Shown here in pieces: positions 25,261-29,096 of a DNA stretch of 64,000 bases. Position 1 is the first letter of the stretch. Every line of letters begins with the position of its first letter. The stretch lies in assembly GCF_900105685.1 (NCBI RefSeq), contig NZ_LT629781.1, positions 3,224,001-3,288,000 of the forward strand, read 5' to 3'. The position numbers and the translations under genes are program-made. Under the pieces are notes generated by a model, which saw nothing but the letters and a program-made list of their open reading frames with translations, did not search any database and was not told the origin of the DNA. Source of the stretch: Verrucomicrobium sp. GAS474 (GTDB taxonomy: Bacteria; Verrucomicrobiota; Verrucomicrobiia; Methylacidiphilales; GAS474).

Positions 25261-25998
25261 TCACGCAGTTTCTTCATCCCCGTCGGAGGGGGGAAGCGTA
25301 TCGGTGTCGATCATCCCCGAGAGGGAACCGCCCGGCTCGACAATTATTTCATGGGTGAGAAGGACTGGAGCCTCGACGATGCCCTCGCTCAGGACGTGGA
25401 TTTTCTCCCGGGCGTAGATCTGGCGGGCGTTGATCCGTCCGTCGGCTTCGAGGAGGGTCGTCCGCACCCGGTCGACCGCGGTTTCGGCCCCGCGGAGGAC
25501 GCGGATGAGGGGGGCCATCAAGGCACCCCGGACGGAGCCCTTCTTCGACAACAGGATCGATTCGAGGGCCCGGATGCGGGCCGACTTGATCTCCCCGCTC
25601 ACGGTGACGTTCCGGCCCCGGATCTCGGGGCCGCTGTAGCGGACATTCGCCTCGAAGACGACGTCGCCGCTGGTGTGGACCCGCTGCCGGACGACCCCCT
25701 CCAGCGTGTAGCTGCCGATGTTGAGATGGCACCCGCAGGAGGAGCAGACGGCGGAGAGGGCGTCCTCGTAGACCTTCTGCTCGCTCTCGCACTGGGGGCA
25801 GCGGATGAGGCGGGAGGGCTTCTGCTTCCGGACGCGCCGACCGGCGTTCCCCTTCGTCTCGAGGGAGAAGTAGCCGTTGCAGTGGCGGCAGACAGTCGAG
25901 ATCGCCTCGGCCGGTTCCTGCTGCGTCCCCTCGCAATGGGGGCAGGTGACGGTGATGCGGTCGGCGGACGATTTGTTGCCGCTGCCCTTGAGGTTCAT
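25261..25998 (-). CDS. Zinc-ribbon bactofilin
   Basis: 245 residues. Two zinc-ribbon-like modules come first: CPHCEGT...CRHCNGY (about 19-40) and CPQCESE...CSSCGCH (about 67-88). A bactofilin right-handed beta-helix follows (NIGSYTLEGVVRQRV, AGPEIRGRNVTVSGEIKSARIRA, INARQIYAREKIHVL, GGSLSGMID). Bactofilins polymerise into cytoskeletal filaments; ribbon-headed versions are unusual and the ribbons may bind nucleic acid or partners. The start codon is adjacent to the stop of the small bactofilin gene just upstream, so both are transcribed together. Confidence 0.8.
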   Translation of the reverse strand: MNLKGSGNKSSADRITVTCPHCEGTQQEPAEAISTVCRHCNGYFSLETKGNAGRRVRKQKPSRLIRCPQCESEQKVYEDALSAVCSSCGCHLNIGSYTLEGVVRQRVHTSGDVVFEANVRYSGPEIRGRNVTVSGEIKSARIRALESILLSKKGSVRGALMAPLIRVLRGAETAVDRVRTTLLEADGRINARQIYAREKIHVLSEGIVEAPVLLTHEIIVEPGGSLSGMIDTDTLPPSDGDEETA

Positions 25999-26343
25999 TT
26001 ACCGCACTCCTCCCATCCGCATGCGGAAACCGAAAAGGGAGAAGAAACGGCGCAGGAGGTCGCCGAGGCCGTCGCCCATGCCGACGCTGAGGACGGGGGC
26101 GGTGGGATGGGTCGCGGCCTTGCCGATCAGGAGGAGGGCCTTGATCCGGGCGCCAGGCTCGATGCGGAGGGAGCCGCTCCGCAGCTCGCCGTCGATCCGG
26201 GCTTCCTTGAAGATCTCCAGGTGGTCCCGGACGTGGACCTTGCCGCGCAGCTCGCAGGCGATGCGGGCGCTCCCGAACACGGTGAGGTCGCCGATGAGGC
26301 GGAGTTCGGTGGGGAGGACGGTGGTGGGGGCGGTCGCTTCCAT
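25999..26343 (-). CDS. Small bactofilin
   Basis: 114 residues. A short beta-helix domain shows the regular bactofilin repeats ELRLIGDLTVFGSARIACELRGKVHVRDHLEIFKEARIDGELRSGSLRIEPGARIKA, i.e. GxV/I.., read here in pieces of about 18 residues, then a basic aromatic tail (RRFFSLFGFRMRM) that could attach to membrane. A polymer-forming cytoskeletal protein by family. Divergently transcribed from the LuxE-like gene across an 81-bp gap holding a good promoter. Confidence 0.8.
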   Translation of the reverse strand: MEATAPTTVLPTELRLIGDLTVFGSARIACELRGKVHVRDHLEIFKEARIDGELRSGSLRIEPGARIKALLLIGKAATHPTAPVLSVGMGDGLGDLLRRFFSLFGFRMRMGGVR

Positions 26344-26424: not shown

Positions 26425-27513
26425 ATGAGCCCTTCCATGTTCCTCACCCCTTCCCTCCGCGCCGCCTGGTGGCGGCGCATCGCCGCCCTGAAGGGGGGAG
26501 ACGACGTCGGCTTCAATCAAGCCGCGCTGGAGCTCTTCGCCTGGCAGTTCTCGAAGAACGCCCCCTACCGGACGTGGTGCCGGGCGGAGGGCGTCGACTC
26601 CCCCAAGGCGATCCTCTCCTGGCGGGAGATCCCCTCGGCCCCCCAGGAACTCTTCAAGAGAAAGACCCTCTTCTGCCACCCGGCGAAGAGCGCCCGCGCG
26701 CTCTACCGGACCAGCGGGACGACGACCGGGCGGAAAGGGATGCAGCGGCTCCTCTTCACCGACCTCTACCGCGCCTCGGCCCTCGCCGCCGCCGAGCTCG
26801 TCGGCCCCTTCTCGATGCCCGGCCTGCCGAAGCGCCTTCCCCTCCTCTGCCTCGCCCCCTCGCCGGAAGAGAACCCCCACTCCTCCCTCTCGGCGATGCT
26901 CGGCTTCTTCATCGAGGCCCGGGGCGACCGCCGCCATTCCCGATTTTTCGTCGAGGGGGACCGTCTCCGCCTCGACGCCTTGGCCCGCGCCCTGAAGCAG
27001 GCCGAGGAACGGCAGACCCCCGTCGGCATCCTCGGCACCGCCTTCGCCTTCGTCCACCTGATCGATGCCGGCCTCGGGCCGTTCCGGCTGCCGGAGGGGA
27101 GCTTCCTCATGGAGACCGGCGGCTTCAAGGGCCGGAGCCGCGAGGTCGCCAAGCCGCTCCTCTACCAGGAACTCTCGAAGCTTCTGGGCCTCCCCCTCCC
27201 CTCTCTCTGGAACGAATACGGGATGACCGAGCTCAGCAGCCAGGCCTACGCCCAAGGCCCCGTCGGCGCCCATCACCTGCCGCCGTGGACCCGCATCCTC
27301 CCGATCAGCCCGGTCAACGGCAAGATCCAGACCAAGGGCCGCCAGGGGCTCCTCCGGTGGATCGACCTCGCCAACGTCGACGGCGTCCTCGCGCTGGAGA
27401 CCGCCGACCTCGGCCTCTCGACGATCAACGATTACCAGCACTTCCGGCTCATCGGCCGCGTGCCGCAGCTCCCCCGCCGGGGCTGCTCCCTCGACGCGGA
27501 GGATCTCCAGTGA
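26425..27513 (+). CDS. luxE: LuxE-like acyl-protein synthetase
   Basis: 362 residues of the LuxE (acyl-protein synthetase) family, which activates a fatty acid with ATP and passes it to a reductase. The adenylate-forming signature YRTSGTTTGRKG lies at about 94-105, NEYGMTELSSQAY near 265, and a Cys in a GCS motif stands 8 residues from the C-terminus (C354), the position where vibrio LuxE carries its acyl-accepting Cys. ATG 26425 starts the family-like region; ATG 26437 is an alternative. The downstream luxC start (GTG) overlaps its stop codon. No luxA, luxB, luxD or luxG is in the window. Confidence 0.82.
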   Translation: MSPSMFLTPSLRAAWWRRIAALKGGDDVGFNQAALELFAWQFSKNAPYRTWCRAEGVDSPKAILSWREIPSAPQELFKRKTLFCHPAKSARALYRTSGTTTGRKGMQRLLFTDLYRASALAAAELVGPFSMPGLPKRLPLLCLAPSPEENPHSSLSAMLGFFIEARGDRRHSRFFVEGDRLRLDALARALKQAEERQTPVGILGTAFAFVHLIDAGLGPFRLPEGSFLMETGGFKGRSREVAKPLLYQELSKLLGLPLPSLWNEYGMTELSSQAYAQGPVGAHHLPPWTRILPISPVNGKIQTKGRQGLLRWIDLANVDGVLALETADLGLSTINDYQHFRLIGRVPQLPRRGCSLDAEDLQ

Positions 27514-28568
27514 GCTCCGCGCGGCAACGGGCCGCCCTCCTCGCCCCCCTCTTCGGACTGAAGCCCCCGGCCCTGACGGCGTGGCTCGAAGTCGAGCTCG
27601 GTTCCACCGACGCCCTCGACCGCTGGACGCCCCGCGCCCCGGGGATCGCCAGCCGCGCCGTCGCGCCCCGGACGATCTACCACCTCTGCCCCGGCAACGT
27701 CCCCGAGGCCGGCCTCCAAAGCCTCCTCATCGGCCTCCTCCTCGGTTCCCGCAACGTGGCGAAGCTCCCCCGGGATCCCGCCGTGCGGAAGGCGATCCGG
27801 GCCTTTGCGGCCTCGCTCCCCGCCCCCCTCCGGCCCTTCCTCGCCCTGCGCACCGCCTTCCGTCCGAAGGAAGTGGCCGGACCCAATATTGACGCCGTGA
27901 TCGCCTACGGCGGGGACGAGGCCGTCGCCGCCGTCCGCGCCCGGTTGCGGCCCGATCAGGTCTTCCTGCCCTACGGCCATCGCGTCTCCCTCCTCTGGCT
28001 CGGGAAGCTGGTCAAGACGGCTCCGGGGCTCGCCGCCGCCGTCGCGCACGACGTCTCGGCCCACGCCCAACTCGGATGCCTCTCCCCCCAGGCCGTCTAC
28101 CTCGCCCCGGGCTCGGACGCCGTCGCCTTCTGCGAGGCCCTGGCCCGGGCGCTGCACGCCCTCCCCGCCACGCCGCCGCCTCTCGCCCACGCCGCCTTCA
28201 TCCGCAACGCGAAGCACGCCGTCCGCGCCGCCGGGGGCCGTCTCTGGGAAAGCGCGAGCCCGCTCGGCTCGACCGTCCTCCTCGATCCCGATCCCGCCTT
28301 CCGGGACGGCTACACCCATCGCACCGTCGCCGTCCGGATCGCCTCTCCGAAGGCCGTCGAAAAGGCCCTCCTTCCTTTCCGGGAAAAAATCTCGACCGTC
28401 GGCCTCCGCGCCCCCTTTTCCCCCGCCGACGAGGCCCTCGCCCTCGCCCTCGGCGCGGAGAGGATCTGCCCCGTCGGCCAATGCCAGCAGCCCCCCTTGT
28501 TCCGCCACCACGATGGGCGTCCCCGATTGGCCGATCTCGTGAAATGGGTTGACCGTGAGGTCCTCTAG
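27510..28568 (+). CDS. luxC: LuxC-like acyl-CoA/acyl-protein reductase
   Basis: 352 residues of the LuxC family: NADPH-dependent reduction of an activated acyl group to the fatty aldehyde. The aldehyde-dehydrogenase-like nucleophile is C190 in QLGCLSPQAVY, matching the QACLSPQ motif of vibrio LuxC; PGNVPEAG and a KLPRDP stretch are further family features. It is shorter than vibrio LuxC (near 480 residues) but the C-terminus (RPRLADLVKWVD) reads like a natural family end. Starts with GTG inside the GTGA overlap with luxE, with a GGAGGA upstream. The terminal TAG lies inside the left arm of an inverted-repeat element. Confidence 0.82.
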   Translation: MSSARQRAALLAPLFGLKPPALTAWLEVELGSTDALDRWTPRAPGIASRAVAPRTIYHLCPGNVPEAGLQSLLIGLLLGSRNVAKLPRDPAVRKAIRAFAASLPAPLRPFLALRTAFRPKEVAGPNIDAVIAYGGDEAVAAVRARLRPDQVFLPYGHRVSLLWLGKLVKTAPGLAAAVAHDVSAHAQLGCLSPQAVYLAPGSDAVAFCEALARALHALPATPPPLAHAAFIRNAKHAVRAAGGRLWESASPLGSTVLLDPDPAFRDGYTHRTVAVRIASPKAVEKALLPFREKISTVGLRAPFSPADEALALALGAERICPVGQCQQPPLFRHHDGRPRLADLVKWVDREVL

Positions 28569-28722
28569 GTCCAATCGGCAATGAGACAACCGCGCCGGCG
28601 GGGCTTTGCCCCGTCTCCCGTTGTTGCCCTTCGCTCGATGTGGCTTTAGGCCACACCTTCGCGCGGTCGCCTAGGGCCAATCCGAAGCAACGCGGTCTTG
28701 TCTCATTGCCGATTGGACCTAG
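28565..28722. repeat. 158-bp MITE-like element with perfect 25-bp terminal inverted repeats
   Basis: Left arm 28565-28589 (begins CTAGGTCCAATCGGCAAT) and right arm 28698-28722 are exact reverse complements over 25 bp. Inside are two short hairpins, GGGGC/GCCCC (28600-28612) and GTGGC/GCCAC (28640-28654), plus a degenerate direct copy of the arm start at 28671-28684. CTAG at both outer ends could be a 4-bp target duplication or contain a duplicated TA. There is no coding potential. It separates luxC from queD, contains the luxC stop codon, and would fold into a long hairpin in the message. No transposase seen. Confidence 0.75.
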
Positions 28723-28733
28723 GATAAAACGAC

Positions 28734-29096
28734 GTGAAGATCACTCTCTGCAAGGATTTCGAGTTCGAGGCCGCCCAGGCCCTCCCTTCCTTTCCCGAAG
28801 GGCACAAGTGCCGGGCCATGCACGGCCACAGCTTCAAGCTGACCATCTCGGTCACCGGCGAGGTCGATCCGAAGACCGGCATTTTCTACGATCACGCCCT
28901 CATCTCCGAGGCGATGGCCCCCCTCATGGAGACCCTCGACCACGCCTGCCTGAACGACATCCCGGGCCTCGAGATCCCCTCCATCGAGAACATCTGCCAC
29001 TGGCTCTGGACCCGCCTCGCGCCGAAGCTGCCGGGCCTCTCCGAGATCGTCCTCCACGAGACCTCCCGTTCCCGCTGCGTCTACCGGGGGGATTAA
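28734..29096 (+). CDS. queD: QueD-like 6-carboxytetrahydropterin synthase
   Basis: 120 residues, the family's usual length; in queuosine/7-deazaguanine synthesis QueD converts dihydroneopterin triphosphate to 6-carboxytetrahydropterin. PEGHKCRAMHGHSF supplies the catalytic Cys (C26) and two zinc His (H30, H32); LDH, the ETSRSRCVYRG end and ITGEVDP-like EVDPKTG match E. coli QueD closely. The first zinc ligand is absent: residue 15 is Gln (AAQ) where E. coli has His (AAH). Starts with GTG at 28734. It stands between luxEC and modBC, with no other queuosine gene nearby. Confidence 0.83.
   Translation: MKITLCKDFEFEAAQALPSFPEGHKCRAMHGHSFKLTISVTGEVDPKTGIFYDHALISEAMAPLMETLDHACLNDIPGLEIPSIENICHWLWTRLAPKLPGLSEIVLHETSRSRCVYRGD

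Follow-up and report, generated by a model that had tools for sequence, protein, structure and literature searches.

A LuxE-LuxC pair without luciferase in Verrucomicrobium sp. GAS474 and its probable role in queuosine precursor synthesis

We found that Verrucomicrobium sp. GAS474 carries an intact LuxE-LuxC pair, of the type that converts a carboxylate to an aldehyde, without luciferase. Judging from the sequences, LuxE and LuxC, together with a class III PLP aminotransferase (AT), probably complete the preQ1 branch of queuosine synthesis in a different way, leading from 7-carboxy-7-deazaguanine (CDG) to preQ1, from which the tRNA base queuosine is built, and replacing QueC and QueF. We favor this queuosine reading because queD, queE and the AT gene are neighbors of luxEC, because the pair and QueC-QueF follow an either/or pattern, and because the LuxE fold resembles that of PaaK-like enzymes acting on aromatic acids. 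The pair lies in a stretch of 64,000 nucleotides (contig NZ_LT629781.1, positions 3,224,001 to 3,288,000), referred to here as the window, in which we placed the following features.

25261-25998 and 25999-26343, minus strand: two bactofilin genes, divergent from luxE, the first with a zinc-ribbon-like start
26425..27513, plus strand: LuxE-like acid-activating enzyme, 362 aa (open reading frame, Pfam, alignment with 7XC6)
27510..28568, plus strand: LuxC-like acyl-thioester reductase, 352 aa, GTG start (open reading frame, Pfam, alignment with 7XC6)
28566..28722, no strand: inverted-repeat (MITE-like) element, 157 bp, between luxC and queD
28734..29096, plus strand: QueD-like 6-carboxytetrahydropterin synthase, encoded downstream in the luxE-luxC gene row

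Both lux frames are open and full length, and the luxE stop overlaps the GTG start of luxC by four bases (GTGA), which confirms the coupling proposed in the initial annotation. In the alignment with homologues, relatives start at the second methionine of LuxE, and the true luxE start may be 26437 instead of 26425. LuxE scored 34.3 bits against Pfam PF04443 (cut-off 24.9), covering 327 of its 362 residues, and LuxC scored 125.5 bits against PF05893 (cut-off 21) over nearly its full length. In the PDB, the two proteins matched by sequence a single entry, 7XC6, the LuxC-LuxE complex of Photobacterium phosphoreum, and both of its chains. LuxE Cys354 (RGCSL) and LuxC Cys190 (QLGCLSPQ) align with the cysteines of that complex and are invariant in 20 LuxE and 24 LuxC relatives of the order, respectively; the same alignments showed that the TSGTT, GGxKG and EYGM(T/C)E motifs are kept in LuxE and the QxGCLSP stretch in LuxC. 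Profile scores and acyl-accepting cysteines thus place the proteins in the LuxE and LuxC families. The initial annotation had called such a pair, with its key residues near the LuxE end and at C190 of LuxC, and on intact frames, family scores and the 7XC6 alignment we agree; the activity residues also withstood closer alignment. Each gene is present in a single copy in the genome, which consists of one contig of 3.76 Mb.

Neither luxA nor luxB was found in this genome, so the pair is not part of a lux bioluminescence operon. A luciferase encoded elsewhere was considered and rejected, since the four luciferase-like proteins that the genome search returned all belong to other families (two alkanesulfonate-monooxygenase-like, or SsuD-like, one SfnG-like and one of the MsnO8 family); the earlier statement that luciferase genes are lacking therefore extends from the neighborhood to the whole genome. 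The initial annotation had further suggested that the aldehyde serves another purpose, such as the production of wax, alkylglycerol or signal lipids. Its first half, a role outside luminescence in an under-described system, stands, and the lipid product is not supported. The family names and 7XC6, the structure of a genuine fatty-acid reductase, do favor an enzyme pair whose products would be fatty aldehydes or alcohols destined for wax, ether lipids or signals. Nevertheless, we regard this as highly improbable: the scores fall far below the NCBIfam cut-offs for the luminous equivalogs (LuxE, 35.1 versus 550 bits; LuxC, 46.1 versus 750 bits), and LuxC lacks ∼90 N-terminal residues of its 7XC6 counterpart. 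Further objections came from the gene neighbors and from the distribution of QueC and QueF, both described below.

Predicted structures were obtained with AlphaFold at a confident pLDDT of 95.3 for LuxC and 92.1 for LuxE. The nearest solved fold to the LuxC model was 7XC6 LuxC (E value of 1e-20; TM score of 0.81 over the model), followed by aldehyde dehydrogenases. The LuxE model was nearest to PaaK-family adenylating enzymes of small, mostly aromatic acids, including those acting on phenylacetate, salicylate and 3-amino-4-hydroxybenzoate. The pair resembles the fatty-acid reductase of luminous bacteria, in which the acid is held on the LuxE cysteine, passed as a thioester to the LuxC cysteine and reduced to the aldehyde, in this proposed chemistry, in its adjacent, translationally coupled genes and in its LuxC fold. 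It differs in the missing luxA and luxB, the shorter LuxC N terminus, the low equivalog scores, the PaaK-like LuxE model and its partners, which are queD, queE and an aminotransferase.

The queD gene adjoining luxC had been missed in the initial annotation. Its product scored 105 bits against PF01242 and 81.9 bits against NCBIfam QueD, slightly below the cut-off of 89.25. In another genome of the same genus (G002, locus L043), queD directly follows luxC, and the 157-bp element is absent between the two genes. The element, which supplies the luxC stop codon TAG, is a near-perfect inverted repeat with ends of at least 23 bp (TAGGTCCAATCGGCAATGAGACA) and CTAG at each flank, and its DNA fold has a z-score of -10.4. 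It was apparently inserted between luxC and queD; no second copy was seen in the window or in the few other stretches that were read. On the other side of luxE, the divergent bactofilin pair is kept across families of the order, though LuxE identity there is only about 34 to 49%. It does not accompany LuxE outside the order (the 2 of 80 loci of the wider search that have it are both from Methylacidiphilaceae), and since its conservation is thus confined to the order, we rejected it as a functional clue.

To place these neighbors in a wider frame, we used a LuxE alignment scan with one genome per species, which returned at least 589 relatives, of which we retained 80 loci (from Verrucomicrobiota, Myxococcota, Gemmatimonadota, Vulcanimicrobiota [Eremiobacterota], Omnitrophota, Sumerlaeota, Chloroflexota, Bacteroidota and others). 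A LuxC-like gene was present in 61 of them. Neighbor clustering and a hand count showed that 40 of the 80 loci have beside luxEC at least one of queD, queE and a gene of a single class III aminotransferase subfamily, that of AT. The AT gene adjoins luxEC in 21 loci from several phyla; queD directly follows luxC in 18, all from Verrucomicrobiota, and is next to it in three further loci, from the order; and queE lies directly upstream in 3. Two gene orders illustrate this arrangement, AT-luxE-luxC-queD at L142 (where AT is cut by the contig end; also at L306) and queE-AT-luxE-luxC at L099. The survey of luxEC neighbors that the initial annotation had proposed thus turned up queD, queE and one aminotransferase where a fatty-acid reductase would call for lipid genes, none of which recurred. 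A preQ1 riboswitch, which was sought as direct proof of a queuosine link, was detected neither in the window nor in the 28 related loci scanned.

Several other arrangements were seen in these loci. An MFS transporter gene follows luxE in nine Verrucomicrobiota loci (L111, L130, L135, L143, L144, L149, L153, L157 and L160), in most of them sitting between luxE and luxC, and might possibly encode a carrier of a queuosine precursor. A CoA-binding-like protein of ∼155 aa is encoded just upstream of luxE at L154, L156, L159, L162 and L174, several of these from Vulcanimicrobiota; the L154 copy, the one tested, had no NCBIfam match. At two loci, L307 (7510-10029; G195:C60) and L102 (3267-5999), LuxE and LuxC matches fall within one open frame, possibly encoding fusion proteins. 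The L307 protein belongs to a more canonical LuxE type, and none of the neighbors sought for queuosine lies beside it.

The remaining genes of the proposed route were located in the window's genome (contig C1), AT and queE lying away from luxEC.

C1:1575736-1577043: class III PLP aminotransferase (AT), PF00202, 289.7 bits
C1:1379967-1380641: QueE, best model NCBIfam QueE, 229 bits against a cut-off of 300
C1:409965-410981: QueA

By its PF00202 match and the invariant class III PLP lysine motif in the alignment, AT is a class III enzyme, with matches to GABA, putrescine and acetylornithine aminotransferases. It fits no named subfamily, and its scores come to roughly half of each curated equivalog cut-off (265 versus 552 bits for the nearest). 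Within the order, members of the AT subfamily scored 472 to 605 bits and other class III enzymes less than 265, and the subfamily was carried by G006 and by all but two of the 29 LuxC genomes (27), and all 10 genomes with QueC/QueF lacked it. AT shares its family and its PLP lysine with class III aminotransferases that act on aldehydes (GABA and putrescine aminotransferases, PigE), a class in which the conversion of aldehydes to amines is known, and it differs from these in forming a subfamily of its own that co-occurs with LuxEC.

The standard queuosine route comprises FolE, QueD, QueE, QueC, QueF, Tgt, QueA and QueG or QueH. Of those sought, the window's genome has QueD, QueE and QueA, and neither QueC nor QueF gave a match in it. 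QueE was found in all LuxC genomes of the order, including this one, and CDG should therefore be made despite the missing QueC. QueA, which acts on preQ1-tRNA, was found in 21 of 21 good-quality genomes, again including this one, and preQ1 must therefore be available. Production of CDG without QueC and use of preQ1 without QueF leave precisely the kind of gap that could be closed by activating the acid, reducing it and transaminating the aldehyde.

We infer the substrate, the aldehyde intermediate, the product and the order of steps of the LuxE-LuxC-AT route as follows. QueD and QueE would make CDG, the carboxylate of which LuxE would adenylate with ATP before binding CDG to its own Cys354 through a thioester. 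From there, the acyl group would be transferred to LuxC Cys190 and converted by LuxC, with a nicotinamide cofactor, to 7-formyl-7-deazaguanine, from which AT would form preQ1 (7-aminomethyl-7-deazaguanine) for use by Tgt and QueA. The bypassed steps would be those of QueC (CDG to the nitrile preQ0) and QueF (preQ0 to preQ1). Such a route would share with the QueC-QueF branch its start at CDG, its end at preQ1, QueD and QueE upstream and QueA downstream; it would differ in the absence of QueC (PF06508) and QueF (PF14489) and in using an aldehyde and transamination in place of nitrile formation and nitrile reduction.

Since QueD is the commonest direct neighbor in Verrucomicrobiota, LuxEC might instead belong to this queuosine/pterin region but act on another acid, for example, the QueD product 6-carboxytetrahydropterin, to give a pterin aldehyde or alcohol. 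We consider this quite unlikely. All LuxC genomes retain QueE, which in Gemmatimonadota is encoded right beside luxEC; an aminotransferase suits an amine product and not a pterin alcohol; and the exclusion described next concerns QueC and QueF, the two steps that come after QueE.

If LuxE, LuxC and AT do replace QueC and QueF, as the queD, queE and AT neighbors led us to predict, then LuxEC and QueC/QueF should be mutually exclusive. Among 40 genomes of the order, LuxC was present in 29 and true QueC/QueF in 10, with no genome having both and one having neither. The LuxC count comprises 28 full-length genes and one contig-end fragment (G032, scoring 126 bits against a profile made from the order itself); true QueC was accepted at E values below 1e-40 and true QueF at E values near 1e-29 or better, with one QueF fragment counted (G018). 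The probability of zero overlap, uncorrected for kinship, is 11/C(40,10), or ∼1e-8. The exclusion reaches into the window's own genus, where G001 has QueC/QueF and lacks LuxC; a weak LuxC match in that genome (18.6 bits) was rejected as an aldehyde dehydrogenase of ∼506 aa. On a QueA tree covering 34 of the 40 genomes, the pattern requires a minimum of three independent switches, including one within this genus, a number that is a lower bound given limited searches. All three ran in the predicted direction, but with so small a number of pairs the sign test is not significant. Three draft genomes depart from the full pattern: G006 has AT, QueE and QueA with neither LuxC nor QueC/QueF, and G009 and G020 have LuxC with no AT detected. 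These exceptions may reflect either the draft state of the genomes or another enzyme stepping in.

The either/or pattern would be left without explanation by a fatty-acid reductase, and together with the queD, queE and aminotransferase neighbors and the PaaK-like LuxE model it speaks against the lipid reading. It could also arise if LuxEC and AT made an unrelated amine and QueC/QueF were missing through salvage of preQ1 from outside. Salvage of preQ1 is indeed common among bacteria (PMC11130926), and many aldehydes are substrates of class III aminotransferases. In that case, however, QueD and QueE would be useless, yet both recur with luxEC, adjoining it in many lineages, and the one-to-one replacement of QueC/QueF is seen even inside one genus. 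We therefore think salvage with an unrelated amine hardly probable at all and retain the replacement of QueC-QueF by LuxE, LuxC and AT as the preferred reading.

Beyond the order, where QueF was the enzyme searched, it was absent from 46 of 50 LuxE genomes of many phyla. Weak matches were provisionally assigned by length and coverage to the T-fold enzyme GTP cyclohydrolase I (FolE) in the case of QueF (20 to 31 bits, in these broad genomes) and to other ATP-pyrophosphatases in the case of QueC (19 to 25 bits). The four QueF-bearing exceptions, from Methylomirabilota (L104), Bacillota (L164), Chloroflexota (L127) and Actinomycetota (L110), fall in the LuxE tree into one side clade with L136 and L166 (SH-aLRT of 91). 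Outside this clade, all 44 genomes tested lack QueF (43 in the tree; L129 was not in the tree).

In those members of the side clade that could be read, the gene context suggested a link with thiamin. At L164 (5179-12276, Paenibacillus), genes for ThiM, ThiD, ThiE and an NCS2 permease directly precede luxE, and an SDR gene follows luxC. A TPP riboswitch lies upstream of luxEC at L104 (24-3451, Methylomirabilota), where a protein reading as a zinc alcohol dehydrogenase is encoded before luxE, and at L136 (7312-11642, Brevibacterium). No thiamin context was seen at L166. These findings suggest that side-clade LuxE-LuxC may serve salvage by reducing an oxidized thiamin moiety, first from the acid to the aldehyde and then to the alcohol, in which case the QueF-bearing exceptions would support the view that the substrates shared by these enzymes are heteroaromatic acids. 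With about an even chance of being right, we propose that LuxE-LuxC enzymes of the window's clade are general heteroaromatic carboxylic acid reductases whose product is set by the partner: with AT, preQ1 from CDG in QueC/QueF-free genomes of many phyla; in the sister clade, with TPP riboswitches or ThiM-ThiD-ThiE and an SDR or zinc alcohol dehydrogenase, a thiamin moiety for salvage.

In a search mainly of open-access journal papers, we found none linking queuosine with LuxE or LuxC or, in any relevant way, with acyl-CoA reductase. Bacterial preQ1 synthesis has been described as requiring QueC and QueF (PMC11130926). A LuxE homologue, AS87_03730, has been described in the nonluminous bacterium Riemerella anatipestifer. 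Its deletion slowed growth, and translation genes, QueA (COG0809) included, made up most of those up-regulated; the authors proposed no queuosine link (PMC4772473). This mutant may fit a queuosine role of LuxE. In the LuxE tree, two Bacteroidota proteins (L161 and L171) lie inside the wider clade of the window's LuxE.

If the proposed role is correct, activation of an acid, reduction of its thioester and transamination would constitute a third way to preQ1 and thereby a new path to a bacterial tRNA modification that is almost universal, with the free aldehyde 7-formyl-7-deazaguanine predicted as a new metabolite. It would explain how queuosine is kept without QueF in many Verrucomicrobiota, Myxococcota, Gemmatimonadota, Vulcanimicrobiota and others, and it would change genome-based calls on which bacteria make queuosine precursors and which import them. 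A large group of proteins whose present names derive from luminescence would also gain a function.
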